NCBI RefSeq assembly: GCF_030733745.1
Contig: NZ_JASHIK010000013.1
Location: forward strand, 62,001-126,000
Source of the DNA: Stappia sp. MMSF_3263
GTDB lineage: Bacteria; Pseudomonadota; Alphaproteobacteria; Rhizobiales; Stappiaceae
DNA length: 64,000 nucleotides
Direction: 5' to 3'
Each line of letters starts with the position of its first letter. Positions within the stretch are counted from its first letter, which is position 1. Positions 9,582 to 36,894 of the stretch are shown piece after piece. A program made the translations under genes and the position numbers. Below the pieces are notes generated by a model, which worked only from the letters and a program-made list of their open reading frames with translations, was not told the origin of the DNA and did not search any database.

Positions 9582-9600
9582 CCCGGCATTTGTTGCCGGG
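9582..9600. promoter_or_regulatory. FlbD enhancer-like palindrome (ftr-like) for flgE
   Basis: Perfect palindrome CCCGGCA-TTTGT-TGCCGGG, about 100 bp upstream of the sigma-54 promoter of flgE. The same element with 5-base spacing recurs before flgI and, in weaker form, before flgF and flgB. Position and symmetry fit a binding site for the sigma-54 activator FlbD, as known in Caulobacter; the assignment is inference. Confidence 0.7.
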
Positions 9601-9695
9601 ACAAGGGGGACAAAGCTGCCGCCACGTCGCCGGTTGCCGGCGCGCCATCCTTTTTGGATCAAGCGATTTCAAAGACTTGGGGCGTTTCGTGAAAC

Positions 9696-9711
9696 TGGCA
9701 CGTTGCTTGCC
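9696..9711 (+). promoter_or_regulatory. Sigma-54 promoter of flgE
   Basis: TGGCACG-N4-TTGCC, a full match to the -24/-12 consensus with the invariant GG and GC correctly spaced. It lies 68 bases upstream of the flgE start codon. Together with the palindrome at 9582 it marks flgE as a late flagellar gene under RpoN control. Confidence 0.88.
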
Positions 9712-9778
9712 AACAACAACCGCGAGACCGGTGTCCGCTATGGCGCCGTCATGCCATCCGATCCGTCTGGAGGTTCAC

Positions 9779-11182
9779 ATGGGTGTTTTTGGTGCATTGA
9801 ACGCGGCCGTGTCCGGCCTTTCCGCGCAGGCCTATGCGCTGGAGAACATCTCAGGCAACATCGCCAACTCGGCGACCGTTGGCTACAAGCGGCTCGACAC
9901 GTCCTTCTCGGATCTCGTCGGTGGCGGCCGCGGTTCGCAGCCGAGCCAGCTTGCCGGCACCGTGTCGGCCAGTTCGCGGGCGACGAACGGCATCCAGGGC
10001 GACCTGCAGCAAAGCCAGGTCGATACCTACATGGCCATCAACGGCAGCGGCTACTTCGTCGTGCAGGGCCGCGCCGGCGAGGTTGACGGCCGTTCGATCT
10101 TCACCGGCAACGACCTTTACACCCGACGCGGCGATTTCGAGGTCGACAAGGAAGGTCGCCTGGTCAATGGCGCCGGCTACTACCTGATGGGCCAGCCGAT
10201 CGATCCGGTCACCAAGAACGTCGCCGGTTCGGTGCCCTCGATCATGACGATCGACAGCTCCGTCATTCCCGCCGTCGTGACCGACCGCATCCAGTATGAA
10301 GGCAACCTGCCGACGACGCCGCAGACCAGCGCCAAGCTGGCCGGTGGCACGGACCTGCTCGACGCGGCGCTGACCAAGGCTTCGACCGGTGCGGCGCCGG
10401 ACGCTGCAGCCGTCGGCCAGACCGTCGGCGCCGATGTGATCTCCTCGGATGACGAGGTGACTTTCCTCAACAGCTCGATCGCCGGCGAGGCGATCACGGT
10501 CTACAACTCGAGCGGCACGCCGGTGAACGTGCAGATGCGCTGGGCCAAGACCTTCGAGGATGACGGCTCCCAGCCCGACACGTGGTCGCTCTACTATCTC
10601 TCCGACTCCACGGCGACCGGTGCAGGCGCGAAATGGAGCAAGGTGTCCGACGCCCAGTTCGGCACCGATGGCCGCATGACGCTGCCGGCGACCGACTCCA
10701 TGGCGCTCACCGCCCTCACCGTCGACGGGCAGACGGTCGGCGACGTGACGCTCGACTTCGGCACCGACGCGCTGACCCAGTTCGCCGATGCCAACGGCAG
10801 CGCCAAGATCTCCAAGCTGACCCAGAACGGCTACCCGGCGGGCGATCTCGCCGGCATTTCGGTCTCCGAGGCCGGTCGTCTCGTTGCCTCCTACTCGAAC
10901 GGCCGTACCCGCGAGCTTTACGAGATCTCGCTGGTCTCCTTCTCGGGCGAGGCGTGGCTGGAACGTGTCAACGGCGGTGCCTTCGAGGTGACGCCTGAAT
11001 CCGGCGAGCCGATCTCCGGCGCGCAGGGCAACATCGTCGGCAAGCGGCTCGAGGCATCGAATACGGATATCGCCGACGAGTTCTCCAAGCTGATCGTGAC
11101 CCAGCAGGCCTACTCGGCCAACACGAGGATCGTCAGCTCGAGCGATGAAATGCTTCAGGAAGCGATCAACATGATCCGCTGA
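9779..11182 (+). CDS. flgE: Flagellar hook protein FlgE
   Basis: A 467-residue hook subunit, exported by the flagellar type III system to form the universal joint between rod and filament. The N-terminus (MGVFGALNAAVSGLSAQ, then ENISGNIANSATVGYKR) and the C-terminus (LIVTQQAYSANTRIVSS) are the paired D0 helices of the rod/hook family. The start at 9779 has GGAGG five bases upstream. Transcription is predicted from the sigma-54 promoter at 9696; flgK follows 77 bases downstream. Confidence 0.95.
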   Translation: MGVFGALNAAVSGLSAQAYALENISGNIANSATVGYKRLDTSFSDLVGGGRGSQPSQLAGTVSASSRATNGIQGDLQQSQVDTYMAINGSGYFVVQGRAGEVDGRSIFTGNDLYTRRGDFEVDKEGRLVNGAGYYLMGQPIDPVTKNVAGSVPSIMTIDSSVIPAVVTDRIQYEGNLPTTPQTSAKLAGGTDLLDAALTKASTGAAPDAAAVGQTVGADVISSDDEVTFLNSSIAGEAITVYNSSGTPVNVQMRWAKTFEDDGSQPDTWSLYYLSDSTATGAGAKWSKVSDAQFGTDGRMTLPATDSMALTALTVDGQTVGDVTLDFGTDALTQFADANGSAKISKLTQNGYPAGDLAGISVSEAGRLVASYSNGRTRELYEISLVSFSGEAWLERVNGGAFEVTPESGEPISGAQGNIVGKRLEASNTDIADEFSKLIVTQQAYSANTRIVSSSDEMLQEAINMIR

Positions 11183-11259
11183 TGCGGGTCGCGAACTGAC
11201 CGGCCGGCGTTTCGCCGGCCGGTCGTCCTTTCACGTCGACGCGGAAGCCGGGTAAGTCC

Positions 11260-13143
11260 ATGGGACTGGGAAGCGTTCTCAACACCGCACTGATCGGGCT
11301 CGGTTACAACCAGCGTCAGCTGGACGTGACCGCGGGCAATATCGCCAATGCGGACACCGTCGGCTACACGCGAAAATCCCTGACCGCGTCGGTCAGCTAC
11401 GACGGCAACGGCCGGGTTACCGGCCTCGATGCCGACAGCATGCGCCGCTATCTCGACCTTGCCGTGCAGACGCAGTACCGCACGTCTCTGGCGCAGAACA
11501 ATTTCGCCTCCGTCTCCCAGCAATACACAGCCCGGCTCGACACGCTGTTCGGAACGATCCAGGATTCGGGCTCGCTGCCCAACCAGGTCAATTCCTTCAT
11601 CTCGTCCATGTCGAACCTGGTGTCCGGGCCGGAGGACTACTCCAACCGGCTCGAGGCCTTGCGGACTGCCGAGGCGATGGTCGGCAAGATCAACGCCATG
11701 TCCCAGGAAATCCAGGACATGCGGCAGGAGGTCGAGTACCAGATTTCCGATCAGGTCAACCGGGTCAACGAACTTCTGACGGACCTGCAGGCGCTCGACC
11801 GCGAGGTGGTCGCCAATTCGCAGGACGGCGACATGCCTGTCGGACTGATGGATCAGCGCGACATGATCCTGGAGGAGCTGTCGGGCTATATCGACATCAC
11901 GGTGAAGCCGACGGAACAGGGTGGGGTGCGCGTCCACATGGGCGGCGGCACGCTGCTCTATGATGTCGACGTGATGAAGCTGAAGTTCGATGTGCGCGGC
12001 AACATCAACGCCAACTCTCTCTATTCGATCAATCCTGCCGACCGGGATGTCGGCACGCTCGTGCTCGAGAACTCGGAAGGCAGCCAGATCGACCTGCTGG
12101 CGACGCGCACGCTGCGCACGGGATCGCTCGCCGGCCTCGTCACCATGCGCGACCAGACGCTGACGGATGCGCAGACGCAGCTCGACGAGCTTGCCGCGTC
12201 TGTCGCGCGCGCGTTTTCCACGCATGTTCAGGACGGCACGCCTTATCCGGCCGCCGGCACCCAGACGGGCTACGAGCTCGATCTGGCGAACATGCAGCCC
12301 GGCGACAGCCTGACCTTCGACGTGAAGGACATGGCGACCGGCCGCACCAAGTCGGTCACCATCTATCGCAGCGACGGTCCCGAGCCACCGGCGCTCACGG
12401 CGACGAATGATTCCAACGACATCTTCCTTGCCGTCGATTTCTCCAGCGGCAATTACGGGACGATCGCGGCGAACATCCAGACCGCGCTCGACGGGGATCC
12501 GCGCATCGGTGCGGGCGTCTTCACGGCTGCCAATCCGGGCGGCTCGACCCTGAGGCTGGAAAGCACGGCGCCCGCCGCCACGCGTATCGAGAGCATGTCG
12601 GCGAACGAGACGATCACCGATCCGTCCACCCATGGCGATGCCTTCGCGCTGTTCGTCGATGACGATGGCAGCCCGTTCACGGGCATGGCCGACGGCCGGC
12701 CGAACACCACGGGCTTCGCTTCGCGGATACGGGTCTCCGAGGCGCTGCTCAACGATCCCTCGCTGCTGGTGGAATATGCACCGGGCATCGCCAATGGCGA
12801 TCCGACGCGGCCGCAGGCTGCCCTCGACAAGCTGACCAACACCAAGGTCGCCTTTTCTCCGGGCACCAGGATCGGCGGCCCGAACGCGGTCTACAAGGGC
12901 TCGATCAACGACTTCGTGACGGCTTCGGTCTCGCACCAGAGCGGCCGTGCCGCCCAGGCGAAAGCGACGCTGGCCGGCCAGGAGGTGGTGACGTCCAACC
13001 TGAAGACGCGTCTCGACAACGCCTCGAAGGTCGACGTGGACCAGGAGCTGGCGCAGCTCGTCACGTTGCAGAACGCCTATGCGGCCAACGCCCGGGTCAT
13101 GCAGGTGGTGCGCGAATTGTACGATATCCTGATGCGGAGCTAG
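11260..13143 (+). CDS. flgK: Hook-filament junction protein FlgK (HAP1)
   Basis: A 627-residue hook-associated protein. The N-terminal heptad region (MGLGSVLNTALIGLGYNQ, TAGNIANADTVGYTRK) and the C-terminal helix (LVTLQNAYAANARVMQVV) form the conserved D0/D1 core. The middle, about residues 330-520, is the variable surface domain. FlgK caps the hook and joins it to FlgL and the filament. The gene is followed after nine bases by flgL and probably shares the flgE transcript. Confidence 0.95.
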   Translation: MGLGSVLNTALIGLGYNQRQLDVTAGNIANADTVGYTRKSLTASVSYDGNGRVTGLDADSMRRYLDLAVQTQYRTSLAQNNFASVSQQYTARLDTLFGTIQDSGSLPNQVNSFISSMSNLVSGPEDYSNRLEALRTAEAMVGKINAMSQEIQDMRQEVEYQISDQVNRVNELLTDLQALDREVVANSQDGDMPVGLMDQRDMILEELSGYIDITVKPTEQGGVRVHMGGGTLLYDVDVMKLKFDVRGNINANSLYSINPADRDVGTLVLENSEGSQIDLLATRTLRTGSLAGLVTMRDQTLTDAQTQLDELAASVARAFSTHVQDGTPYPAAGTQTGYELDLANMQPGDSLTFDVKDMATGRTKSVTIYRSDGPEPPALTATNDSNDIFLAVDFSSGNYGTIAANIQTALDGDPRIGAGVFTAANPGGSTLRLESTAPAATRIESMSANETITDPSTHGDAFALFVDDDGSPFTGMADGRPNTTGFASRIRVSEALLNDPSLLVEYAPGIANGDPTRPQAALDKLTNTKVAFSPGTRIGGPNAVYKGSINDFVTASVSHQSGRAAQAKATLAGQEVVTSNLKTRLDNASKVDVDQELAQLVTLQNAYAANARVMQVVRELYDILMRS

Positions 13144-13152
13144 TGAGACGCG

Positions 13153-14679
13153 ATGTCCATCAATCCCTATGGCAGCCTCAACTCGCCGCGCCTGGTCAAC
13201 TACCTGACCAGCATGCGCTCGCAGATGGACGATCTTCAGCGGCAGCTGGGCACCGGCCTCAAGTCGGAGACCTATGGCGGCCTCGGCTCGTCGCGCGTCC
13301 TCGACCTGCAGCTCAAGCAGCAGCTCTCCGAGGTCGGCGTCTACAAGCAGACGATCCAGATCGCCGGCCTGCGGCTCGACACGATCGACAAGACCAGCGA
13401 GCGGCTCGAGGAAATCCGCATCGAGGCGAAGGCCACCACCGACCAGAACAATTTCGAACTGTTCAGCAATGGCCGCACCTCGTCCCAGACCGCGGCGGAG
13501 ATTTCGCTTCGCGAGTTCATGTCGCATCTCAACACGGATGTCGGCGGGCGCTATCTGTTCTCGGGAAAGACCGCCGACACGCTGCCGGTTCAAAGCCTTG
13601 ATTACATTCTCGCCGGGGACGGCAACTATGCGGGCCTGAAAACCGTCATCGGAGAATATAATCAGGCGGATCTCGGCGCGCTGGGGAACGGCCGCATGAC
13701 GACCGCTCAGGTCGGTACCCAGGTGACGCTTGCCGAGGACGGTACCCATCCGTTCGGTTTTAAGATCGACAATGCGTCGTCGGGCCTAAGCAACGTGAAC
13801 GTCACGCAGAATGCGGGGCCGCCGCCGTCGATGGATGTCGACTTCACCGGACAGCCGCAGCCTGGTGAGGCGATCCGCGTCTTCCTGACACTGCCGGACG
13901 GGTCCCAGAGCGAGATAACGCTGGGCGTCGATGGTGGGCAGGACGATCCGGAGTTCACCTTCTCGCGCGGTGCGACGCCGGCCGACACGGCCGCCTATTT
14001 CAAGACCGCTCTCGACAGCGCCCTGCAGAAGGCAGCGAACACGGAGTTGAAGGCGGCCTCGACGACGCGCGCCTCGGAAGCCTTCTTCGACACCGCGCCG
14101 AAGTCGCCGGTGCCGCCGGGCTATCTGCCGCAAGCGCGGGTGGTGCCGAATGCCGGCGACTTCACCACCGCGACCACCCTGCGCGACGGAACGCCGGACA
14201 CGGTCGCCTGGTACACCGGCGACAACTCGCCGGGCAATCCGCGCCAGGACACCAGTGCCGCGATCGACGAGAACCTGAAGATCAACTACGGCGCACGCGC
14301 GAACGAGGACGGCTACCGCCTTGTCGTCCAGTCGCTTGCCGCCTTCGCCGCCTCGGACTTCTCCAGCAACAGTCCGGACAACCAGGCATTCTATGAGCAG
14401 ATGGCGCAGCGTTCCTATGGAGGACTGACGCCGGCCGGCGCGGAAGCATCCGGCATTCGCCAGAACCACATGGAGTTCGCCGCGGCGCAGCGCACGCTCA
14501 AGGACGCGGAAACCCGGCACAGGGTGGAGGAGGGGTCGCTGAAGGCCTTTGTCGACGAGATCGAGGGCATCGACAAGGAAGAGGTCGCCGTCCGGCTTCT
14601 GACGCTGCGGACCAACCTGGAAGTGAGCTACCAGGCCACCAGCATGACGCTGCAACTGTCCCTGTCGAACTATCTGTAG
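13153..14679 (+). CDS. flgL: Hook-filament junction protein FlgL (HAP3)
   Basis: A 508-residue flagellin-like junction protein. Residues 1-150 (LVNYLTSMRSQMDDLQRQLGTG, SSRVLDL) and about 430-508 (AAAQRTLKDAETRH to TLQLSLSNYL) form the conserved helical core. The large central insertion, about residues 185-370, makes it clearly longer than the roughly 300-350 residues of many FlgL proteins and probably forms an extra surface domain. Last gene of the flgE-flgK-flgL run; a rho-independent terminator follows at 14745. Confidence 0.92.
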   Translation: MSINPYGSLNSPRLVNYLTSMRSQMDDLQRQLGTGLKSETYGGLGSSRVLDLQLKQQLSEVGVYKQTIQIAGLRLDTIDKTSERLEEIRIEAKATTDQNNFELFSNGRTSSQTAAEISLREFMSHLNTDVGGRYLFSGKTADTLPVQSLDYILAGDGNYAGLKTVIGEYNQADLGALGNGRMTTAQVGTQVTLAEDGTHPFGFKIDNASSGLSNVNVTQNAGPPPSMDVDFTGQPQPGEAIRVFLTLPDGSQSEITLGVDGGQDDPEFTFSRGATPADTAAYFKTALDSALQKAANTELKAASTTRASEAFFDTAPKSPVPPGYLPQARVVPNAGDFTTATTLRDGTPDTVAWYTGDNSPGNPRQDTSAAIDENLKINYGARANEDGYRLVVQSLAAFAASDFSSNSPDNQAFYEQMAQRSYGGLTPAGAEASGIRQNHMEFAAAQRTLKDAETRHRVEEGSLKAFVDEIEGIDKEEVAVRLLTLRTNLEVSYQATSMTLQLSLSNYL

Positions 14680-15748: not shown

Positions 15749-17137
15749 CTAGAACAGACGCAGCACCGCCTGGTCGGCCTGCGAGGACAGCGACAGGGCC
15801 GTCGTCGACAGCTGCTGGCGGGTCTGCAGGGCGAGAAGGTTGGCGCCTTCCTCGTTGGTGTCGGCGAGCACCAGGTTGTCGGCGCCCGTCTGCAGGGTGT
15901 TGATCGCCGCCTTGGTGTAGTCCTTGCGGATCTGCACGGTCGAGAGGCTCGAACCGAACTTGGAGCCGGCCTCGCGCAGGGTGATCAGCGCCTCGGAGAG
16001 CTCATCGAGCGAGGTGTTGGCCTCGGTGTCGCTGAGGCTCGAGACCTGGCTGATGTTGAGGCCCGAGGAGGTCAGGTCCTCGCCACCGATCTTCAGCTCC
16101 GACTTCGTTGCCGCATCGCGCTTCTCGTTGAAGGCGACGGTGAGCTTGGAGGAGGAGGAGTTGATCAGGTTGATGCCGTTGAACGAGGCATCGGCGGCGA
16201 GCTTGTCGATCTGGCCCAGGATGTCGTTGAACTGCGACACCAGCTTCTGGCGGGTGGAGGAGTTCGCTGCCGGATTGGCCTGTGCGGCGATGACCAGCGA
16301 GTCCATGTCGCCGGCGGTGGCGCCGTCGGTGAAGGAGACCGACGTCTCGCCGGCGTCGACATAGTCGCCGTCGGCCGGATCGGACAGGTCAACGTTGGAG
16401 TTGGTGCCGAAGCCGAGCGAAGCGGCCAGCGAAGTCGCCTGGGTCGTCGCGGTGGAGGCGTCGCCGCCCGTGTCGAAGATGTTCAGGTAGATGCTTTCGG
16501 AATCCGAAGCGGTGATCTTCAGCTTGCCGGCATCGGTGACCTCGGCGGTGGCAACGCCCGAGGCGTTGATCACGTCGAGGACGTCCTGGACGGTCGCGAC
16601 CGGGCCGGTGCCGTCGGTCTTCTGCGTCGTGCCGATGGTGATCCCAATGCCGGAGAGCGCGCCGGTTGCGGTGTCGTGCGCTGACAGTTCGATCAGATCA
16701 CCGTTCTGGAAGCCGAGGTTGGCGAGGGTCTGGCGCTTGGCCTGGTCCTGGATGGATTCGCCCGAGATCGGGGTCAGGCCGTTGGTGGAGATCGACGAGG
16801 AGCTCTCGACGATGGTGCCGGAGCCGGCCGAGCCGTCCTGCAGCGCCTGACGGGCGGTCGACTGGGCACTTTCCACCAGCTTGGTGATGGCGGTGATGCC
16901 GTTGTCGGCGGCCTCGATCGTCTTGATCGCGTTGCCGATGCCGTCGAGCAGGTTGTTCAGGTCGTTGGCGCGGGCGCCGAGCGACTGCGAGGTGAAGAAG
17001 TTGGTCGGGTTGTCGAGGGCCGAGTTGACCTTCTTGCCGGTGGCAAGACGGTTCTGGGTGGTGGCCATCATGTCTGCGGTGCCCTGCAGGGTCAGGAGGT
17101 TCTGACGCACACCGGCGGAGAGAGTGATATCGGACAT
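15749..17137 (-). CDS. fliC: Flagellin (paralogue 1 of 4)
   Basis: A 462-residue filament subunit. The N-terminal D0/D1 helices (MSDITLSAGVRQNLLTLQ, NRLATGKKVNSALDNP) and C-terminal helices (RQQLSTTALSLSSQADQAVLRLF) are flagellin hallmarks. Residues about 150-290 form the variable exposed domain. The protein is nearly identical to paralogue 3 outside that domain, including the NISQVSSLSDTEANTSLDE stretch. Its own hairpin leader and terminator indicate a monocistronic transcript. The RBS is AAAGGA. It is a likely acceptor for the sugar made by the neighbouring neu-like locus (inference). Confidence 0.95.
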   Translation of the reverse strand: MSDITLSAGVRQNLLTLQGTADMMATTQNRLATGKKVNSALDNPTNFFTSQSLGARANDLNNLLDGIGNAIKTIEAADNGITAITKLVESAQSTARQALQDGSAGSGTIVESSSSISTNGLTPISGESIQDQAKRQTLANLGFQNGDLIELSAHDTATGALSGIGITIGTTQKTDGTGPVATVQDVLDVINASGVATAEVTDAGKLKITASDSESIYLNIFDTGGDASTATTQATSLAASLGFGTNSNVDLSDPADGDYVDAGETSVSFTDGATAGDMDSLVIAAQANPAANSSTRQKLVSQFNDILGQIDKLAADASFNGINLINSSSSKLTVAFNEKRDAATKSELKIGGEDLTSSGLNISQVSSLSDTEANTSLDELSEALITLREAGSKFGSSLSTVQIRKDYTKAAINTLQTGADNLVLADTNEEGANLLALQTRQQLSTTALSLSSQADQAVLRLF

Positions 17138-17173
17138 TGCAAAATCCTTTTGCCTGATCCCGCCGGGCGGGTC

Positions 17174-17190
17174 AGCCTCATCCTGAGGCT
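17174..17190 (-). promoter_or_regulatory. Flagellin 1 leader hairpin
   Basis: Perfect 7-bp inverted repeat AGCCTCA-TCC-TGAGGCT, 37 bases upstream of the start codon. In the mRNA the stem presents GGA in the loop (context CAGGAUG). The same sequence recurs at almost the same distance before paralogue 3. Candidate binding site for FlbT or a CsrA-like protein. Confidence 0.6.
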
Positions 17191-17215
17191 TCTCGGCAAT
17201 GTGCCTTATTTATCC

Positions 17216-17230
17216 CTGATGAATGGTTAA
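17216..17230. promoter_or_regulatory. Weak CtrA-like box, flagellin 1
   Basis: CTGA-N7-TTAA, 79 bases upstream of the start codon, at the same place as the better CTAA-N7-TTAA boxes of paralogues 2 and 3. One mismatch makes it weak on its own; the conserved position is the main support. Confidence 0.4.
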
Positions 17231-17296
17231 AGCGCAGGCTTGCGACTTCGAAATGGTGTGTCTTTTCAGAGAGAAAGCCTCTCACCCGGCTTGAGT

Positions 17297-17326
17297 GAAA
17301 AAGGGCGGCGAGTGTTCTCGCCGCCC
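17297..17326 (-). terminator. Terminator of second flagellin gene
   Basis: Stem GGGCGGCGAG / CTCGCCGCCC with a 4-base loop, followed on the minus strand by TTTTT. It starts 34 bases past the stop codon at 17360. Confidence 0.88.
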
Positions 17327-17359
17327 TCATATGAACGTGAAAGGCGTTTGCGTGTGTCC

Positions 17360-18748
17360 TTAGAACAGACGCAGCACCGCCTGGTCGGCCTGCGAGGACA
17401 GCGACAGGGCCGTCGTCGACAGCTGCTGGCGGGTCTGCAGGGCGAGAAGGTTGGCGCCTTCCTCGTTGGTGTCGGCGAGCACCAGGTTGTCGGCACCCGT
17501 CTGCAGGGTGTTGATCGACGCCTTGGTGAAGTCCTTGCGGATCTGCACGGTCGAGAGGCTCGAACCGAACTTGGAACCGGCCTCGCGCAGGGTGATCAGC
17601 GCCTCGGAGAGCTCGTCCAGGGCGGTGTTGGCCTCGGTGTCGCTGAGGCTGGTCACACTGGTGATGCTGAGGCCCGAGGAGGTCAGGTCCTCGCCACCGA
17701 TCTTCAGCTCCGACTTCGTGGCCGCATCGCGCTTCTCGTTGAAGGCGACGGTGAGCTTGGAGGAGGAGGAGTTGATCAGGTTGATGCCGTTGAAGGAGGC
17801 ATCGGCAGCGAGCTTGTCGATCTGGCCCAGGATGTCGTTGAACTGCGACACCAGCTTCTGGCGGGTGGAGGAGTTCGCGGCCGGATTGGCCTGTGCGACG
17901 ATCGACAGGGTGTCGGCCGCACCGGCGGTGGCGCCGTCGGTGAAGGTAACCGCCGTCTCGCCGGCGTCGACATAGTCGCCGTCGGCCGGGTCGGACAGGT
18001 CGATATTGGAATTGGTGCCGAAGCCGAGCGAAGCGGCCAGCGAGGTCGCCTGGGTCGTCGCGGTGGAGGCGTCGCCGCCCGTGTCGACGATCGAGAGGTC
18101 AACCGTCTCGGCGTCCGATCCGGTGATCTTCAGCTTGCCGGCATCGGTGACCTCGGCGGTGGCAATGCCCGAGGCATTGATCACGTCGAGCACGTCCTGG
18201 ACGGTCGCGACCGGGCCGGTGCCGTCGGTCTTCTGCGTCGTGCCGATGTTGATTGCGATGCTCGATACCGAGCCCGTACCCGTGTTGGTCGTCTGCAGGG
18301 TGATCGTGTCGCCATTGGCGAAGCCGAGGTTCGACAGGGTCTGGCGCTTGGCCTGGTCCTGGATGGATTCGCCCGAGATCGGGGTCAGACCGTTGGTGGA
18401 GATCGACGAGGAGCTCTCGACGATGGTGCCGGAGCCGGCCGAGCCGTCCTGCAGCGCCTGACGGGCGGTCGACTGGGCACTTTCCACCAGCTTGGTGATG
18501 GCGGTGATGCCGTTGTCGGCGGCCTCGATCGTCTTGATCGCGTTGCCGATACCGTCAAGCAGTGCGCCGAGATCGTTGGCGCGGGCGCCGAGCGACTGCG
18601 AGGTGAAGAAGTTGGTCGGGTTGTCGAGGGCCGAGTTGACCTTCTTGCCGGTGGCAAGACGGTTCTGGGTGGTGGCCATCATGTCTGCGGTGTTCTGCAG
18701 GGTCAGGAGGTTCTGACGGACACCAGCGGAAAGAGTGATATCGGACAT
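17360..18748 (-). CDS. fliC: Flagellin (paralogue 2 of 4)
   Basis: A 462-residue flagellin with the same N- and C-terminal cores as paralogue 1. I set the start at 18748 (MSDITLSAG), which aligns with the other copies and has AAAGGA upstream; an in-frame codon at 18790 is not used by the paralogues. It differs from copies 1 and 3 near the C-terminal D1 region (SITSVTSLSDTEANTALDE; KDFTKASINTL) yet shares its middle (TITLQTT) with copy 3, so the set looks mosaic. Confidence 0.95.
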   Translation of the reverse strand: MSDITLSAGVRQNLLTLQNTADMMATTQNRLATGKKVNSALDNPTNFFTSQSLGARANDLGALLDGIGNAIKTIEAADNGITAITKLVESAQSTARQALQDGSAGSGTIVESSSSISTNGLTPISGESIQDQAKRQTLSNLGFANGDTITLQTTNTGTGSVSSIAINIGTTQKTDGTGPVATVQDVLDVINASGIATAEVTDAGKLKITGSDAETVDLSIVDTGGDASTATTQATSLAASLGFGTNSNIDLSDPADGDYVDAGETAVTFTDGATAGAADTLSIVAQANPAANSSTRQKLVSQFNDILGQIDKLAADASFNGINLINSSSSKLTVAFNEKRDAATKSELKIGGEDLTSSGLSITSVTSLSDTEANTALDELSEALITLREAGSKFGSSLSTVQIRKDFTKASINTLQTGADNLVLADTNEEGANLLALQTRQQLSTTALSLSSQADQAVLRLF

Positions 18749-18784
18749 TGCAAAATCCTTTCGCGTCGCCCCGTCGCGGGCGAG

Positions 18785-18797
18785 TCTCATTCTGAGA
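18785..18797 (-). promoter_or_regulatory. Flagellin 2 leader hairpin
   Basis: Inverted repeat TCTCA-TTC-TGAGA, 37 bases before the start codon, the same distance as in paralogue 1. The mRNA loop is GAA where the other copies have GGA or AGGA, so this copy may bind a regulator less well. Confidence 0.5.
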
Positions 18798-18823
18798 TCG
18801 CGTTAAGGATTGCGACAAAAACA

Positions 18824-18840
18824 CTAACGAGCGGTTAACC
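18824..18840. promoter_or_regulatory. CtrA-type box, flagellin 2
   Basis: CTAA-N7-TTAACC, 76 bases upstream of the start codon. It differs by one base from the TTAA-N7-TTAAC consensus known for CtrA. The same arrangement is seen before flagellin 3. Confidence 0.6.
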
Positions 18841-18894
18841 ATAATTGCAATTGGCGGGCAAAGATTAAGAAAAATAACGTTTCGGCGGCGCGTG

Positions 18895-18922
18895 AAAAAA
18901 AACGGCGGGGAGGGCCCCGCCG
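18895..18922 (-). terminator. Terminator of third flagellin gene
   Basis: Stem CGGCGGGG / CCCCGCCG with a 4-base loop; on the minus strand it is followed by eight T. It lies 33 bases past the stop at 18956. Confidence 0.9.
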
Positions 18923-18955
18923 TTTTCTGTTCTTCGCGTGTCCAATCCGGTTGGA

Positions 18956-20344
18956 TCAGAACAGACGCAGCACCGCCTGGTCGGCCTGCGAGGACAGCGA
19001 CAGGGCCGTCGTCGACAGCTGCTGGCGGGTCTGCAGGGCGAGGAGGTTGGCGCCTTCCTCGTTGGTGTCGGCGAGCACCAGGTTGTCGGCGCCCGTCTGC
19101 AGGGTGTTGATCGCCGCCTTGGTGTAGTCCTTGCGGATCTGCACGGTCGAGAGGCTCGAACCGAACTTGGAGCCGGCCTCGCGCAGGGTGATCAGCGCCT
19201 CGGAGAGCTCATCGAGCGAGGTGTTGGCCTCGGTGTCGCTGAGGCTCGAGACCTGGCTGATGTTGAGGCCCGAGGAGGTCAGGTCCTCGCCGCCGATCTT
19301 CAGCTCCGACTTCGTTGCCGCATCGCGCTTCTCGTTGAAGGCGACGGTGAGCTTGGAGGAGGAGGAGTTGATCAGGTTGATGCCGTTGAAGGAGGCATCG
19401 GCGGCGAGTTTGTCGATCTGGCCCAGGATGTCGTTGAACTGCGACACCAGCTTCTGGCGGGTGGAGGAGTTCGCGGCCGGATTGGCCTGGGTGGTGATCG
19501 ACAGGGTGTCGGCCGCACCGGCGGTGGCGCCGTCGGTGAAGGTGACCGCCGTCTCGCCGGCGTCGACATAGTCGCCATCGGCCGGATCGGACAGGTCAAC
19601 GTTGGAGTTGGTGCCGAAGCCGAGCGAAGCGGCCAGCGAGGTCGCCTGGGTCGTCGCGGTGGAGGCGTCGCCGCCCGTGTCGACGATCGACAGGTTGATG
19701 GTCTCGGAATCCGATCCGGTGACCTTCAGCTTGCCGGCATCGGTGACCTCGGCGGTGGCAACGCCCGAGGCATTGATCACGTCGAGGACGTCCTGGACGG
19801 TCGCGACCGGGCCGGTGCCGTCGGTCTTCTGCGTCGTGCCGACATCAATCGAGATGCTGGAGACCGAACCGGTGGCGGTGTCGGTCGTCTGCAGGGTGAT
19901 CGTGTCGCCATTGGCGAAGCCGAGGTTCGACAGGGTCTGGCGCTTGGCCTGGTCCTGGATGGATTCGCCCGAGATCGGGGTCAGGCCGTTGGTCGAGATG
20001 GAGGAGGACGACTCGACGATGGTGCCGGAGCCGGCCGAGCCGTCCTGCAGGGCCTGACGGGCGGTCGACTGGGCGCTCTCCACCAGCTTGGTGATGGCGG
20101 TGATGCCGTTGTCGGCGGCTTCGATCGTCTTGATCGCGTTGCCGATGCCGTCGAGCAGGTTGTTCAGGTCGTTGGCGCGGGCGCCGAGCGACTGCGAGGT
20201 GAAGAAGTTGGTCGGGTTGTCGAGGGCCGAGTTGACCTTCTTGCCGGTGGCAAGACGGTTCTGGGTGGTGGCCATCATGTCTGCGGTGCTCTGCAGGGTC
20301 AGGAGGTTCTGACGCACACCGGCGGAGAGAGTGATATCGGACAT
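18956..20344 (-). CDS. fliC: Flagellin (paralogue 3 of 4)
   Basis: A 462-residue flagellin, with the same cores as the others. It is almost identical to copy 1 over the first 150 and last 150 residues, and to copy 2 around TITLQTTDT and the GAADTLSI stretch. The start at 20344 has AAAGGA upstream. It has its own terminator and leader hairpin, so it is expressed independently. The near-identity over hundreds of bases suggests recent duplication or gene conversion. Confidence 0.95.
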   Translation of the reverse strand: MSDITLSAGVRQNLLTLQSTADMMATTQNRLATGKKVNSALDNPTNFFTSQSLGARANDLNNLLDGIGNAIKTIEAADNGITAITKLVESAQSTARQALQDGSAGSGTIVESSSSISTNGLTPISGESIQDQAKRQTLSNLGFANGDTITLQTTDTATGSVSSISIDVGTTQKTDGTGPVATVQDVLDVINASGVATAEVTDAGKLKVTGSDSETINLSIVDTGGDASTATTQATSLAASLGFGTNSNVDLSDPADGDYVDAGETAVTFTDGATAGAADTLSITTQANPAANSSTRQKLVSQFNDILGQIDKLAADASFNGINLINSSSSKLTVAFNEKRDAATKSELKIGGEDLTSSGLNISQVSSLSDTEANTSLDELSEALITLREAGSKFGSSLSTVQIRKDYTKAAINTLQTGADNLVLADTNEEGANLLALQTRQQLSTTALSLSSQADQAVLRLF

Positions 20345-20381
20345 TCGGAAATCCTTTCTGGCTGCCCAAGTTACGCATTGG

Positions 20382-20396
20382 GCCTCGTCCTGAGGC
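20382..20396 (-). promoter_or_regulatory. Flagellin 3 leader hairpin
   Basis: Inverted repeat GCCTC-GTCCT-GAGGC, 38 bases before the start codon. The mRNA loop reads AGGAC. The sequence is nearly the same as the flagellin 1 hairpin, although the bases around it differ. Confidence 0.6.
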
Positions 20397-20422
20397 TCGC
20401 AGTCACAGTAGGGGCCGAAAGG

Positions 20423-20437
20423 CTAAATTAAGGTTAA
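20423..20437. promoter_or_regulatory. CtrA-type box, flagellin 3
   Basis: CTAA-N7-TTAA, 79 bases upstream of the start codon, matching the box before flagellin 2 in form and place. Confidence 0.55.
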
Positions 20438-20509
20438 TCGGGTCTTGCACGAATTCCGATTTTGCGTGCGTTGCCAATGGGTTTGTTAACCATATCGCAA
20501 GGGATGCAG

Positions 20510-20537
20510 AAAAGGCGGCGAGTCGAAACCCGCCGCC
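20510..20537 (-). terminator. Terminator of fourth flagellin gene
   Basis: Stem GGCGGCG / CGCCGCC with a 10-base loop and TTTT on the minus strand, 40 bases past the stop at 20577. Confidence 0.82.
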
Positions 20538-20576
20538 TTTTCCGTAACGCTTTCGCGTCGTTTGCGTTTTGCGTCC

Positions 20577-23186: not shown

Positions 23187-23281
23187 GGGCGGTTGTCGCA
23201 TGTGGAGCAGATGGACGCTGACGTGACGCGCTTCCCGAGAACCTCGCCACCGCCTCGCATTCCCTACGTGCCGGCGTTCAC

Positions 23282-25200: not shown

Positions 25201-25904
25201 TTTGCGACGCGATCGTGCTTGCCCGCGGCGGCTCCAAGGGAATACCGCGCAAGAACCTCGTTTCCGTCTTCGGCAAGCCGCTGATCGCCTGGACCATCGA
25301 GGCGGCACAGAATGCAGGCTTCGTCCGCGACGTGATCGTCTCCACCGACAGCGAGGAAATCGCCGAGACCGCGCGCGCGCTCGGTGCCCGCGTGCCGGTG
25401 CTGCGGCCTGACGAGTTCGCCACCGATACGTCGCCGGCAGAGGCCTCGCTCCACCATGCGCTTGACCGGATGTGCCGGAGCGAGATGCCGGATGCGGTGC
25501 TCTTTCCGCAGGTGACGTCGCCCGTCCGCCGCCGTGACACGCTGGCCGGCGCCTGGGCGCATTTCGTGGAGGGCGGATATGATTCGCTCTTTTCGGCGCG
25601 GCTGATCCGAAACTACATCTGGCGCAACCTGCCGGAGCCGCAGCCGCTCTACGATCCGCACAACCGCCTTATGCGCCAGCAGATTCCGGCCGAGGATCGC
25701 TACTACCGGGAAACCGGCAACTTCTATCTGTTCCGCACGGAAAGCTTCCGGATGACCGGCTGCCGGCTGACCGGCCGCACGGGCTTCTACGAGACCAGCG
25801 ACGAAGAGGTCGTGGAGATCGACGAGCCACAGGACATTGCCGTTGCAGAACTGATGCTGGAACGGCTGGAGCGCAATCTCGATATCCATCCGATCCAGAT
25901 GTGA
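25197..25904 (+). CDS. neuA: CMP-nonulosonate (acylneuraminate) cytidylyltransferase
   Basis: A 235-residue nucleotidyltransferase that activates a nonulosonate with CTP. The family signature LARGGSKGIPRKN lies at residues 8-20, followed by STDSEEIAE, QVTSPVR and the GNFYLFR and EIDEPQDIAVAE motifs. It could be NeuA, LegF or PseF by substrate. It is the last gene of the neu-like operon and converges with the FlmG-like glycosyltransferase 19 bases away. Confidence 0.88.
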   Translation: MICDAIVLARGGSKGIPRKNLVSVFGKPLIAWTIEAAQNAGFVRDVIVSTDSEEIAETARALGARVPVLRPDEFATDTSPAEASLHHALDRMCRSEMPDAVLFPQVTSPVRRRDTLAGAWAHFVEGGYDSLFSARLIRNYIWRNLPEPQPLYDPHNRLMRQQIPAEDRYYRETGNFYLFRTESFRMTGCRLTGRTGFYETSDEEVVEIDEPQDIAVAELMLERLERNLDIHPIQM

Positions 25905-29078: not shown

Positions 29079-29407
29079 TGTCCCTGCGTCTCCTGAAGGG
29101 AAAGCAACTGGCGCTGGACGGCGTCGGCAATGCCGATGCCGCCAGCCTTGGCGATAGTGTCGGCGTATTGCTCCACAAGCATGCCGCTCCAGGCATCCGA
29201 GCCCTCGCCGCCGCCCCAGGTTCCGCCGTCTTCCAGGCCGGCGAACATCTGCTGGAACATGGTGTTGAGGAAGATGGCTTCGAATTCCTCGGCGTTCTGG
29301 CGCGAGACGCCCGCCGCGGCGCCGGCGGCCGTCAGAGCTGAACCGGGGCCGGCGGTGTAGCGCCCCTGGGCCGAGCCCAGAACGGTGTCGATGGCGAGGC
29401 CGGTCAT
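29075..29407 (-). CDS. flgJ: FlgJ-like rod-binding protein (CheL type)
   Basis: A 110-residue protein equal to the N-terminal rod-binding half of FlgJ, with AEEFEAIFLNTMFQQMFAGL and WSGMLVEQYADTIAKAGGIGIAD. As usual in alphaproteobacteria the muramidase half is absent, so another enzyme must open the peptidoglycan. The ATG at 29407 shares one base with the flgI stop (TGATG), indicating coupled translation. Confidence 0.85.
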   Translation of the reverse strand: MTGLAIDTVLGSAQGRYTAGPGSALTAAGAAAGVSRQNAEEFEAIFLNTMFQQMFAGLEDGGTWGGGEGSDAWSGMLVEQYADTIAKAGGIGIADAVQRQLLSLQETQGQ

Positions 29408-30552
29408 CACATCACCTCGATTTCGGCCTGCAAGGCGCCGGATGCCTTGATGGCCTGGAGAATGGAGATCATGTCGCGCGGACCGATGCCGAGCGCGTTC
29501 AGCCCGTCGACCAGTTGCTGCAGGGTGACGGACTGCTGCACCAGCGCCAGCTTGTTGTCGCTTTCGTCGTCGACGAGAAGGTCGGTGCGCGGCTCGACGG
29601 CTGTCTGTCCGTTGGCGAAAGGCAGCGGCTGCACGATCTCGGGTGTCTCGGCGACGGTGACCGTCAGGTTTCCCTGCGCGATGGCGACGGTGGAAACCTT
29701 GACGTTCTGGCCCATGACGATGATGCCGGAGTTCTCGTCGATGACGATGCGCGCCGGCAGGTCGGGCTCGACGATCAGCTGCTCGATGTCGGTCAAAAGG
29801 TCGACAATGTTGCCATTGAACTGGCGCGGCAGGTCGATCCGCACGGTCGCCGGGTCGAGCGGCTCTGCCGTCGGCAGGCCGATCAGCTCGTTGACGGCAA
29901 GCGCCATGCGCCGCGCGGTGGTCAGGTCCGGGTTGCGCAGTGCCAGGCGCAGGCTGGTCATCGAGGCGAGCTTGAAGTCGATCTCGCGTTCAACCAGCGC
30001 TCCGTTGGCGATGCGGGCGGAGGTGGGCACACCGCGCACGACCGAGGCGGCATCGCCCTGCGCGGCGAAGCCGCCGATCGCCAGCGGACCCTGCGCAATG
30101 GCATAGACTTCGCCATCGGCACCGAGCAGGGGGGTGACCAGCAGGGTGCCGCCCTGCAGGCTTTCGGAATCGCCGAGCGCGCTGACGGAGACGTCGATGC
30201 GGGTGCCCTGGGTCGAGAAGGCCGGCAGGTTGGCGGTGACCATCACTGCAGCGACGTTCTGGGTGTTCAGGTTGAATCCGCGGGTGTTGACGCCGAGGCG
30301 CTCAAGCATGGCCTCGAGGCTCTGCCGGGTGAAGGGCGCGTTGCGCAGGCTGTCGCCCGTGCCGCGCAGGCCGACGACAAGGCCGTAGCCGATCAGCTGG
30401 TTGTCGCGGATGCCCTCGAAGTCGGCAATGTCCTTGATGCGTGATGCCGCGCTGGCAGCCTGCGCCATGACCAGCAGCAGGGCGAGGATCATCACGAGGC
30501 GGACGAGCCTGCTTGCGGGCGTTGCGGAGAGGAAAAAGCCGGTCAGGGTCAT
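29407..30552 (-). CDS. flgI: Flagellar P-ring protein FlgI
   Basis: A 381-residue periplasmic ring subunit. The signal peptide ends near AQAASA (about residue 35). The mature N-terminus SRIKDIADFEGIRDNQLIGYGLVVGL is diagnostic, as are GRDSL-type turns and IVIDENSGIIVMG in the C-terminal half. It starts the operon flgI-flgJ-flgN. Transcription is predicted from the sigma-54 promoter at 30612 with a palindromic enhancer at 30733. Confidence 0.95.
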   Translation of the reverse strand: MTLTGFFLSATPASRLVRLVMILALLLVMAQAASAASRIKDIADFEGIRDNQLIGYGLVVGLRGTGDSLRNAPFTRQSLEAMLERLGVNTRGFNLNTQNVAAVMVTANLPAFSTQGTRIDVSVSALGDSESLQGGTLLVTPLLGADGEVYAIAQGPLAIGGFAAQGDAASVVRGVPTSARIANGALVEREIDFKLASMTSLRLALRNPDLTTARRMALAVNELIGLPTAEPLDPATVRIDLPRQFNGNIVDLLTDIEQLIVEPDLPARIVIDENSGIIVMGQNVKVSTVAIAQGNLTVTVAETPEIVQPLPFANGQTAVEPRTDLLVDDESDNKLALVQQSVTLQQLVDGLNALGIGPRDMISILQAIKASGALQAEIEVM

Positions 30553-30611: not shown

Positions 30612-30627
30612 TGCGAGGCGCGTGCCA
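30612..30627 (-). promoter_or_regulatory. Sigma-54 promoter of flgI
   Basis: On the minus strand TGGCACG-N4-TCGCA, with the invariant GG and GC in register and one mismatch to the consensus. It lies 60 bases upstream of the flgI start codon. Confidence 0.8.
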
Positions 30628-30732
30628 ACTTGCCGCCAGCCGTTCATGTTTTCACATGCGTTTGAAAGATATGGAGTTTCTGAAATTCTGCCGGACTTCT
30701 CCGGGGTGGGTACACCGTTCCGGGACCGTTGG

Positions 30733-30751
30733 CCCGGCAAGAAATGCCGGG
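30733..30751. promoter_or_regulatory. FlbD enhancer-like palindrome (ftr-like), flgI/fliX
   Basis: Perfect palindrome CCCGGCA-AGAAA-TGCCGGG, about 105 bp upstream of the flgI sigma-54 promoter and next to the CtrA-type box of fliX. It is identical in arms and spacing to the site before flgE. Confidence 0.7.
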
Positions 30752-30754
30752 TTG

Positions 30755-30771
30755 TTAACGGTTCGTTTACC
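30755..30771 (+). promoter_or_regulatory. CtrA-type box of fliX
   Basis: TTAA-N7-TTTACC, one base from the TTAA-N7-TTAAC consensus, 57 bases upstream of the fliX start codon. It would put fliX among the early (class II) flagellar genes, as in Caulobacter. Confidence 0.62.
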
Positions 30772-30827: not shown

Positions 30828-31247
30828 ATGAGAATCTCAGGCTACGCCCCCCTCAACGGGGTTGCGGGACGCAATCAGAAGAAGCGCAGCGATGGCAGCG
30901 GCGGCACGTTCGAGCTTGGCTCGGGCGGGTCGGCAAACGCTTCCGGCGGAGCCTCGGCCGGCAGCGGCATCGGCGGCATCCAGGCGCTGCTTGCCCTTCA
31001 GGAGGTTGACGATCCGTTGACCGGCCGCCGCAAGGCGGTGGCCCGTGGCCACGATCTTCTCGACACGCTGGAAAACGTAAAGACGGACCTGCTCGCTGGG
31101 CGCGTTTCGCCGGAACGGCTCGGCAGACTGACGCAGATGCTGGAACGGCGGCAAGCCACAGGCGACGCGCAGCTGGAGCAGGTGATCGACGAGATCGAAT
31201 TGCGCGCAAGGGTGGAACTGGCAAAGCTCGGACACTTCGGGGATTAA
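30828..31247 (+). CDS. fliX: Flagellar assembly regulator FliX
   Basis: A 139-residue cytosolic protein. The start MRISGYAPLNG is characteristic. The Ser/Gly-rich stretch at 20-45 is a linker, and residues 50-139 are helical (GHDLLDTLENVKTDLLAG, LEQVIDEIELRARVELAKLG). In Caulobacter FliX couples class II assembly to the activity of FlbD, the sigma-54 activator of late genes. It is divergent from flgI, as in Caulobacter. This supports reading the CCCGGCA palindromes here as FlbD sites. Confidence 0.9.
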   Translation: MRISGYAPLNGVAGRNQKKRSDGSGGTFELGSGGSANASGGASAGSGIGGIQALLALQEVDDPLTGRRKAVARGHDLLDTLENVKTDLLAGRVSPERLGRLTQMLERRQATGDAQLEQVIDEIELRARVELAKLGHFGD

Positions 31248-33234: not shown

Positions 33235-33270
33235 AGACCTCCTGATCCTCCTGCCGCGAGAAGAAATGCG

Positions 33271-33313: not shown

Positions 33314-33408
33314 CAACCGTCCTGGTGCCTGGGGAGCGTGGAACGGCTTGGGGAGATGTGTCCGTTCCGCCACCTCTTTTGGGGAGCGTGGCGGCGGAAC
33401 GGGAAGGC

Positions 33409-35123: not shown

Positions 35124-35152
35124 GGCCTGCATCCTTCCGTTCAGCCGGCGCG

Positions 35153-35935: not shown

Positions 35936-35960
35936 GACGAATATCCCTTTTCCGCTTCGC

Positions 35961-36698
35961 TCAGGCCGTGACCGATCCGAGACGCTCGATTGCCTTGCGC
36001 AGCAATTCATCGCCTTCGTTGATCATCTTCGAGACGGCCGTGTAGTGGCGGGTGATCTCGATCATCCGGGTCACTTCGATGACGCCGGAGACGTTGGATT
36101 TCTCGACCGCGCCCTGCAGCACGCGAATGCGTTCGGCCGGTTGCGGATTCTCGCCGGCGAACAGGTTGTCGCCGATCCGGGTGAGCATCTGGGGATTTTC
36201 GAATTCGACCATGCGCAGGCGCCCCTTGACGCCAAGCGCCGTGGAGACCGTGCCGTCCTCGGCGATGGTCACGTCGGTATCCTCGGCGGTGAAGACGAGC
36301 GGGCCGCCTTCGCCGAGTACCGGCCGACCATCCGCGGTCACCATCTGACCTGTCGAGTCCAGGTGGAATGCACCGTTGCGGGTGAAGCGCTCACCTTCCG
36401 GCGTGTCGATCACGAAGAAGCCTTCGCCCTCGACGGCGACGTCGAAAGCGTTTTCGGTCAGCGAGATCGAACCGGCCTCGAAGTTCGAGGACGCGCCGTA
36501 GTCGACCACATACGAGAAGTCCTGGTCGCCATCAACGAAGCTGGAAGCCTCGGCGACGGGCATCAGGTACTCCTCGAACAGCAACCGCTGGGCCTTGAAA
36601 CCCGTGGTGTTCATGTTGGCCAGATTGTTGGCCACCACGCTCAACTGGTTGCGAAGGGCCGTCTGACGCGACAGCCCGATCAGCAGGGAATTCTCCAT
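35961..36698 (-). CDS. flgF: Proximal rod protein FlgF
   Basis: A 245-residue rod subunit. N-terminus MENSLLIGLSRQTALRNQL and NNLANMNTTGFKAQR, C-terminus VTRMIEITRHYTAVSKMI. It is the first gene of flgF-flgG-flgA-flgH; a sigma-54 promoter lies 68 bases upstream of its start. The divergent gene is fliL. Confidence 0.94.
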   Translation of the reverse strand: MENSLLIGLSRQTALRNQLSVVANNLANMNTTGFKAQRLLFEEYLMPVAEASSFVDGDQDFSYVVDYGASSNFEAGSISLTENAFDVAVEGEGFFVIDTPEGERFTRNGAFHLDSTGQMVTADGRPVLGEGGPLVFTAEDTDVTIAEDGTVSTALGVKGRLRMVEFENPQMLTRIGDNLFAGENPQPAERIRVLQGAVEKSNVSGVIEVTRMIEITRHYTAVSKMINEGDELLRKAIERLGSVTA

Positions 36699-36765
36699 GA
36701 CGTGTCGTTCCTATGCTCCCCAGCGAGCACCCGTTCTCCCCAGATCGGATGCCCGTTAACCCTGA

Positions 36766-36781
36766 AGCAGGCTTCGTGCCA
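36766..36781 (-). promoter_or_regulatory. Sigma-54 promoter of flgF operon
   Basis: Minus strand TGGCACG-N4-CTGCT, with the invariant GG and GC in register and one mismatch in the -12 box. Confidence 0.8.
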
Positions 36782-36832
36782 AGTCGCGGTTCATTGATTT
36801 AATTGAGATATTTGGAGTGCCCGGGGAGGCAG

Positions 36833-36850
36833 CCCGGCAGCTTTGCCGCC
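36833..36850. promoter_or_regulatory. Degenerate enhancer-like palindrome, flgF/fliL
   Basis: CCCGGCA-N4-TGCCGCC: right arms but a 4-base spacer and two mismatches. It stands 15 bases from the better site at 36865, so the two may form a pair. Confidence 0.4.
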
Positions 36851-36864
36851 CCATTCCTTACCGA

Positions 36865-36880
36865 CCGGCAAAAATTGCCG
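36865..36880. promoter_or_regulatory. FlbD enhancer-like palindrome (ftr-like), flgF/fliL
   Basis: CCGGCA-AAAAT-TGCCG, 5-base spacer, about 85 bp upstream of the flgF sigma-54 promoter and close to the CtrA boxes of fliL. Confidence 0.62.
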
Positions 36881-36894
36881 CGTAATGCAAGTCG

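Follow-up and report, generated by a model that had tools for sequence, protein, structure and literature searches.

Palindromes paired with sigma-54 promoters at flagellar operons of Stappia sp. MMSF_3263: class comparison suggests spacing in whole turns of the DNA helix

Flagellar operons, palindromes and promoters

We analyzed a 64,000-nucleotide stretch of the genome of Stappia sp. MMSF_3263 (Alphaproteobacteria; contig NZ_JASHIK010000013.1, positions 62,001 to 126,000), called the window below, which carries several flagellar operons (Table 1). Those headed by flgE, flgI and flgF are each preceded by a sigma-54-type promoter and, farther upstream, by a palindrome of the form CCCGGCA-N5-TGCCGGG (the 19-mer; its core is GGCA-N5-TGCC), which presumably resembles the ftr consensus of Caulobacter. 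An earlier note on this DNA had placed sigma-54 promoters before these three genes, with palindromes at 9582, 30733 and about 36865, and both sets are present; the promoters start at 9696, 30613 and 36767, and the third palindrome at 36864. Two palindromes are exact in both arms, as the note had it, and the third has two mismatches among its outer bases, with an exact core. The gaps from 19-mer to promoter measure 95 (flgE), 105 (flgI) and 82 bp (flgF), for a claimed 85-105 bp. The genes, motifs and positions given here are observed directly, as are the conservation and spacing across the class, and comparison within the class suggests that the parts of this candidate switch are set apart by whole helical turns.

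Loose matches to either motif carry little weight, given their numbers in the window: 23 for the 19-mer at up to three mismatches (shuffle mean 11.25; 1 of 100 shuffles reached 23) and 75 for TGGCAC-N5-TTGC at up to two mismatches, against 65.4. The exact core occurs nine times in the window against 2.1 expected (100 shuffles, maximum 7). Five of the nine are intergenic, all five upstream of flagellar operons, and four fall within open reading frames (ORFs), including the core at 55499 (ORF 55130-55690).

Genome-wide specificity

The exact 19-mer occurs three times in the 5.02-Mb genome, twice in the window; the third copy (L028:9093-9111) lies between two convergent genes and forms an extended perfect hairpin that lacks a T run. 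The earlier note had suggested that the exact palindrome may be a good marker of the regulon, which does not hold up: CGGCA-N5-TGCCG is found at 58 places in the genome against 41 for its reversed control. We rejected the palindrome alone as a genome-wide marker. The looser 19-mer (up to two mismatches) does better, with 166 places against 71 for the reversed pattern; among those listed, most are not flagellar. Other palindrome places on contigs C11 and C17 lie at urease, AMP-ligase and transporter-like genes, and no flagellar gene was recognized there when the translations were read.

A core with a sigma-54 box 80-110 bp downstream occurs five times in the genome, and the reversed control never. 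Three of these places are the flgE, flgI and flgF promoters, and the other two lie within the coding frames of RF3-like and DMT-permease-like proteins (translations read by eye); with a gap of 55-85 bp, the genome has zero matches. Outside coding frames the arrangement is specific to flagellar promoters. The clustering of palindromes with sigma-54 sites that the earlier note expected from a genome scan is thus present at 80-110 bp. As to its counter-case of a palindrome equally common away from flagellar genes, the palindrome alone is a poor marker and the pair is strong evidence.

Regulators

FlbD is encoded in the genome (NF050807, 820.5 bits, above the curated cut-off of 750), and its sequence carries a GAFTGA loop. 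The gene occupies L030:14570-15943 on the minus strand of contig C1. Models identify fliF upstream and flhA downstream of it, and fliG, fliH and fliN lie between these two, as judged by place and from reading the translations. We take the position of flbD between fliF and flhA to be that of Caulobacter. FliX, which the earlier note had placed in the window, was found there next to flgI (PF10768, 137.5 bits, cut-off 25); the NCBIfam FliX equivalogs score under their strict cut-offs (best 122.5 of 153). RpoN gave one PF04552 match (236.6 bits), so that both genes the note had wished to see looked up, flbD and rpoN, are present, and its counter-case of a genome without FlbD does not apply. Sigma54_activat has 14 matches in the genome, 11 of them strong. 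The presence of FlbD, FliX and RpoN together with palindromes paired to sigma-54 boxes argues for the known FlbD/ftr/sigma-54 circuit.

Survey of the Alphaproteobacteria

We surveyed 289 genomes of the class, drawn evenly from about 159 families. The palindrome plus sigma-54 pattern has 298 matches (control, 94) in the 155 FliX-positive genomes and 72 (control, 59) in the 134 others. At least one match is found in 108 of 155 FliX-positive and 39 of 134 FliX-negative genomes (Fisher p = 4.6e-12); a slight difference is seen for the control pattern too (59 of 155 against 34 of 134 genomes, p = 0.02). FlbD (at least 436 bits, a threshold placed at a gap in the score list) and FliX occur together in 132 genomes, FliX only in 23, FlbD only in 10 and neither in 124, and in these 124 the pattern has 63 matches against 57 for the control. 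Across the 289 genomes, the arrangement goes with FliX and FlbD.

Upstream regions were compared in sets of 90 fliX and 90 fliL places, out of at least 155 and at least 168, respectively. Each set joins 30 loci to 60 taken down the list, some being skipped by no fixed rule; the sequences were new to the analysis, and the per-genome pattern counts were already known when the choice was made. Five fliX places without a detectable flgI and 11 fliL places without a divergent flgF were left out. In the remainder, flgI is divergent from fliX (85 of 90) and flgF from fliL (79 of 90).

The 85 flgI/fliX regions hold 68 exact cores, spread over 56 regions (Markov shuffles, mean 1.2, maximum 4), and the controls stay low: 0-2 for other spacers (N3, N4, N6, N7), 1 for the reversed and 0-3 for permuted palindromes. 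A sigma-54 match lies on the flgI strand in 72 of 85 regions and on the fliX strand in none of 85. In the flgF/fliL regions there are 59 exact cores in 50 of 79 (controls 1-2, N4 and N6 spacers included). The strict sigma-54 pattern is found on the flgF strand in 31 of 79 regions (other strand, 2); because it missed most flgF promoters, a relaxed pattern was adopted for flgF, which matches 77 of 79 on the flgF strand and 1 of 79 on the other. The -12 element reads T-CGC in most flgI promoters and N-TGC in many promoters of the class flgF set (L161-L250), and several class flgF regions have two palindromes 14 bp apart.

A further set of loci, referred to as the named set, consists of the best 80 loci around FlgI relatives from a longer list and includes Roseibium, Devosia, Bradyrhizobium, Rhodopseudomonas, Azospirillum, Thalassospira and Maricaulis. 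FliX was detected by tblastn in 68 of the 80, an exact core in 58 and a sigma-54 match in 62. The nearest named FlgI among the matches listed is that of Roseibium sediminicola (80% identical).

Helical spacing

In the flgI set (n = 61), the gaps between core and -24 box group around 53, 64, 75, 85, 96, 107, 118 and 129 bp. The best period is 10.8 bp (R = 0.54), and 0 of 2000 jittered sets scored as high. The phase predicted for flgF was fixed before the flgF distances were examined. At the flgI phase, the V-test for flgF gives p = 0.005 with the strict sigma-54 pattern (n = 23) and p = 0.0002 with the relaxed one (n = 54; regions with a single palindrome, p = 0.011, n = 36), and the best periods of flgF alone were 12.1, 13.3 and 11.9 over successive fits. 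The rule of helical spacing stands firmly at flgI and less firmly at flgF, where the prediction was only partly confirmed.

Of the 47 distances in the named set, 41 depart from the predicted phase by no more than 2 bp (V-test p = 1.9e-11). The p-value is 4.5e-11 for the 46 gaps left once loci common to the first set are removed (2 of 80, one with a distance), and 6e-7 with Devosia and the Bradyrhizobium group collapsed. On a FlgI tree, 39 disjoint nearest pairs were compared: the two distances are at most 3 bp apart in 17 pairs and at least 4 bp apart in 22, the 4-bp cut-off being our choice; 15 of these 22 lie within 2 bp of whole turns (V-test p = 0.0009, jitter p = 0.0005). The Stappia core distances of 98, 108, 85, 95 and 76 bp deviate from the class phase by 1.9, 1.1, -0.3, -1.1 and 1.5 bp. 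The literature searched, which covered part of the work on FlbD, contained no mention of helically phased ftr sites or of ftr conservation throughout the class; this is weak evidence of absence.

Sites resembling those of integration host factor (IHF) were scored as WATCAANNNNTTR, with at most one mismatch in the class counts. Between palindrome and promoter there are 27 in 49 flgI spacers (3.9 for comparison) and 20 in 45 flgF spacers (2.0); with its own spacer altered, the consensus is not enriched (N3) or at most two-fold (N5). The edges of these sites lie mostly 13-18 bp before the -24 box (15-20 bp in the flgF set), with minor classes at 1-6, 24-29 and 36-39 bp, in steps about one turn apart. 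Within 120 bp of the promoter, plus/minus-strand counts are 28/13 for flgI, 13/26 for flgF and 22/12 for the named set, where a scrambled consensus gives 2/5, 11/4 and 4/5, respectively. Five of the six strand subsets are phased (p = 0.008 or less). In the window, in addition to the sites of Table 1, flgF has a second two-mismatch match that ends 10 bp before its -24 box.

Early operons and CtrA-like boxes

The palindromes at 30733 and 36864 sit in the divergent regions flgI/fliX and flgF/fliL-fliM and hence also ahead of early genes, a point the earlier note had not remarked. Boxes of the CtrA-like form TTAA-N7-TTAAC precede the early operons, with one mismatch at fliX, fliL and fliF and exact at flgB. 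In the fliO/flgB region the exact box lies between the cores at 47680 and 47807, and no sigma-54-like match was found there at up to two mismatches. On contig C1, fliF has CtrA-like boxes first and an exact palindrome core after them. Also on C1, a sigma-54-like site precedes fliK-flgD, and 95 and 76 bp upstream of it lie the cores of two degenerate palindromes (flgD was identified by model, fliK by position only, without a family match); this operon is probably activated by FlbD as well.

CtrA-like boxes occur on the early strand in 31 of 85 fliX and 33 of 79 fliL regions (shuffles, about 3; spacer controls, 2-10 and 3-21, respectively), and the box is closer than the palindrome to the early gene in 46 of 47 pairings. 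For fliF, one locus with a short upstream region was removed and the Stappia genome added, giving 30 regions; exact cores lie ahead of fliF in 23 of them (shuffles, 0.6), and a sigma-54-like match in two. A core followed by TTAAC after three to seven bases occurs at 118 places in the 289 genomes; since the reversed pattern gives about 98, the unit in itself cannot be called common. Thirty-three of the 118 are found no more than 450 bp ahead of fliF, among 150 fliF places listed; 25 of these 33 have a spacer of exactly 5, compared with 12 of the 85 elsewhere (Fisher p = 3e-10). The palindrome-5 bp-TTAAC unit is absent from the fliF region of Stappia, where the CtrA-like boxes come first; a core-TTAAC unit with a spacer of 6 is present at fliX.

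Table 1. Positions of the palindromes, predicted sites and genes in the window
Feature	Position	Strand	Remarks
ftr-type palindrome, presumed FlbD enhancer of the flgE-flgK-flgL operon	9582..9600	.	exact; 19-mer scan
ftr-type palindrome, divergent flgI/fliX region	30733..30751	.	exact; 19-mer scan
ftr-type palindrome, divergent flgF/fliL region	36864..36882	.	2 mismatches to 19-mer, exact core
sigma-54 promoter of flgE-flgK-flgL	9696-9710	+	TGGCACGTTGCTTGC
sigma-54 promoter of flgI	30613-30627	-	TGGCACGCGCCTCGC
sigma-54 promoter of flgF	36767-36781	-	TGGCACGAAGCCTGC
two overlapping IHF-like sites, flgE	9657..9679	+	2 and 1 mismatches; 3' edges 26 and 16 bp before -24 box
weak IHF-like site, flgI	30655..30667	-	2 mismatches; 27 bp before -24 box
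weak IHF-like site, flgF	36787..36799	-	2 mismatches; 5 bp before -24 box
CtrA-like box of fliX	30754..30771	+	one mismatch; TTAAC starts 6 bp past palindrome core
two overlapping CtrA-like boxes of fliL	36894..36924	+	one mismatch each
ftr core, divergent fliO/flgB region	47680..47692	.	GGCAAAAAATGCC
CtrA-like box of flgB	47780..47800	+	TTAA-N7-TTAAC exact
ftr core just downstream of the flgB CtrA-like box	47807..47819	.	GGCAGTATCTGCC
flgE, flgK and flgL-like genes (late operon)	9779..14679	+	
flgI (late), then rod-binding FlgJ-like gene	29407..30552	-	
fliX	30828..31247	+	start is the ATG where the Pfam model begins; alternative in-frame ATG 30798
flgF (late operon with flgG, flgA, flgH)	35961..36698	-	
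fliL and fliM (early)	36983..38723	+	
early operon: flgB, rod gene (flgC by position), fliE and fliQ (by position), fliR, flhB	47856..51317	+	
cckA, kinase heading the CtrA phosphorelay	51432..53975	+	NF046020, 1245.9 bits, cut-off 1000

Flagellin genes and other genes of the window

Four tandem flagellin genes (two recognized by Pfam, two by their like starts) lie at 15749-21995 on the minus strand, with FlbT and FlaF genes downstream and TTAACC-type motifs upstream. The core scan of the window gave no exact ftr core upstream of these four genes. The one sigma-54 match there, at 18847-18861, has two mismatches and lacks the GG, and there is no good site. Control of the flagellin genes may differ from that in Caulobacter.

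NeuB-family, pyruvyltransferase-like, methyltransferase and cytidylyltransferase genes occupy 22098-25904, between the flagellin and flgI genes, a cluster that suggests modification of flagellin with nonulosonic acid. The FliO gene (45899-47542) has a long extension (547 amino acids) and a weak codon bias. After flhB comes cckA, and at 54323-55045 there is a LuxR-type regulator (autoinducer-binding and GerE domains) whose G+C content is low for a window of 65%; it was possibly acquired.

Relation to known systems

The promoters described here share with Caulobacter crescentus class III promoters the presence of FlbD, FliX and RpoN and a palindrome about 100 bp before a promoter of the TGGCAC-N5-TTGC type, and the IHF-like sites between the two, poor matches here, may be a further likeness; they differ in the fliF palindrome, which in Stappia follows a CtrA-like box. 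In Caulobacter, FlbD is reported to repress class II and activate class III genes, and class III/IV promoters to require IHF (PMC3096577). A chromatin immunoprecipitation sequencing (ChIP-seq) set for Caulobacter FlbD exists (cited in PMC12421884). Negative control of Caulobacter fliF through ftr4 (PMC3930126) has its likeness here and in many genomes of the class in an ftr-type palindrome beside a CtrA-like box before fliF. It differs in that the class-wide palindrome-5 bp-TTAAC spacing is absent at fliF of Stappia, and repression is putative here.

The FlbD scheme outside Caulobacter is already known. FlbD and FliX homologues are reported in dozens of alphaproteobacteria, with a FliX alignment covering Rhodospirillum, Bradyrhizobium, Magnetospirillum and Rhodopseudomonas (PMC3096577), and PMC13390405 cites a 2021 study of the FlbD-FliX pair of Bradyrhizobium diazoefficiens. 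Divergent flagellar units with CtrA boxes are likewise described for fla2 of Rhodobacter sphaeroides and for flgB/fliO of Caulobacter, where flgB diverges from fliO as it does here (PMC6180460). The passages of that paper bearing on these systems suggest that the CtrA site and both promoters must share one helix face. They describe activation by CtrA (flgE2 included) and no FlbD or ftr element at these promoters, and the phasing concerns the CtrA site and promoters, where ours concerns the palindrome, the IHF-like site and the sigma-54 box. IHF function is tied mainly to RpoN promoters (PMC7962754). The geometry of enhancer, bend and promoter is that of other sigma-54 promoters with IHF; here the enhancer would be the FlbD palindrome, which in divergent units appears to be held in common with a CtrA-type promoter.

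Interpretation and alternatives

We consider it very probable that the palindromes are ftr elements, that is, FlbD sites in a flagellar hierarchy of the Caulobacter type with helix-phased looping. The binding of FlbD, control by FliX, bending by IHF, activation and repression are what we infer from work on Caulobacter. CtrA, under CckA, would switch on the early operons (fliX, fliL-M, flgB and the genes after it, and fliF through flbD-flhA), and FliX would restrain FlbD until the early structure is complete. FlbD would then bind the palindromes, loop the IHF-bent DNA and activate sigma-54 polymerase at flgE, flgI, flgF and probably fliK-flgD. Palindrome, IHF site and promoter would be held on fixed helix faces, about 10.8 bp per step, because the loop is short. 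In the divergent regions, one palindrome would serve the late gene while sitting immediately before the early gene's CtrA box; flgB and fliF of Stappia have a palindrome immediately after the CtrA box, and FlbD bound at that position could close down the early promoter. The late-gene switch of the Caulobacter type that the earlier note proposed agrees with FlbD, FliX, RpoN and the paired pattern, and may not extend to the flagellin genes, upstream of which no exact ftr core was found.

A wider proposal is that one strict grammar of FlbD promoters runs through the Alphaproteobacteria, with palindrome, IHF bend and sigma-54 box in one helical phase and distances evolving by whole turns, and that the enhancer forms a unit with the early CtrA box (fliX, fliL, fliF), so that one FlbD complex would turn early genes off and late genes on together. 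We advance the two parts jointly as a tentative proposal that falls a little short of an even chance. That Stappia has a further case of the known circuit is well supported; what appears to be new is the class-wide grammar, above all its helical spacing.

Several observations weigh against these readings. The whole case is built on sequence, and binding and regulation are putative. No exact palindrome is found in 29 of the 85 flgI/fliX regions, and six of the 12 named loci without a detected FliX have an exact core. Taken by themselves, the flgF distances are better described by a period of 11.9 than by one of 10.8; the flgF plus-strand IHF-like sites are neither enriched (13 against 11 scrambled) nor phased (p = 0.19), and the IHF-like sites of Stappia itself are poor, with one or two mismatches. 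Being nearly palindromic, the CtrA-like motif also appears on the late strand (22 of 85 and 12 of 79 regions), and its N8 spacer control is likewise frequent at fliL (21 of 79). Many genomes have palindrome, then TTAAC at fliF and Stappia has the box first, so the repressor position at fliF cannot be generalized. The Stappia flagellin genes show neither an exact palindrome core nor a good sigma-54 site, unlike those of Caulobacter, and from the CtrA phosphorelay only CckA was identified here, no search for CtrA having been made.

Could the palindromes simply be chance or hairpin features (terminators or mRNA structures) of a GC-rich genome, without a regulatory role? The small excess of CGGCA-N5-TGCCG over its reversed control, the hairpin formed by the third exact 19-mer between convergent genes, and loose window matches at only about twice the shuffled number would fit such a view. 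It is nevertheless extremely improbable, given that, coding frames aside, only flagellar promoters have the core 80-110 bp ahead of a sigma-54 box, that the N5 spacer is conserved and the N3, N4, N6 and N7 forms are not (flgI/fliX; N4 and N6 also at flgF/fliL), and that the pattern co-occurs with FliX and FlbD. The sites might instead serve another sigma-54 activator, an NtrC/NtrX-type paralogue, with FlbD acting without them; the 11 strong Sigma54_activat matches (14 in all) leave room for one, and NtrC mutants are reported to affect FlbD-class flagellar promoters in Caulobacter (PMC12421884). We hold this to be highly unlikely, because the excess of the pattern tracks FliX and FlbD and nearly vanishes in the 124 genomes with neither, and because these promoter classes of Caulobacter carry ftr sites to which FlbD reportedly binds (PMC3930126).

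A harder question is whether the palindromes are enhancers of late genes only, their nearness to the fliX and fliL CtrA boxes being a by-product of the divergent layout that leaves the early genes uncontrolled. The palindromes of the fliX and fliL regions precede the CtrA-like boxes and need not block the early promoters, and we regard this reading as unlikely but deserving of serious weight. It sits poorly with the cores ahead of fliF and flgB, where sigma-54-like matches are rare (fliF, 2 of 30 regions) or were not found (flgB here), with the fixed 5-bp spacer to TTAAC at fliF, and with the reported repression of the class II fliF promoter by FlbD in Caulobacter (PMC3096577). Shared ancestry, rather than constraint, might also produce the 10.8-bp periodicity: many of the sampled genomes are related (e.g., the 95-98 cluster in Bradyrhizobium-like genomes), and flgF alone prefers another period. 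This explanation seems to us improbable, since distinct distance values alone retain the 10.8-bp period, the disjoint nearest pairs that differ by at least 4 bp (22 of 39) do so by whole turns at the p-values given above, and most IHF-like subsets show the same step as the palindromes.

Significance

If the palindromes are indeed ftr elements, many families of the Alphaproteobacteria would share cis-elements with the assembly checkpoint of Caulobacter. The searchable grammar of palindrome, IHF step, sigma-54 box and CtrA box would predict the regulon of a genome without prior data. The helical spacing, in turn, amounts to a physical claim on how FlbD may reach sigma-54 polymerase, namely through a short, bent and torsionally constrained loop.

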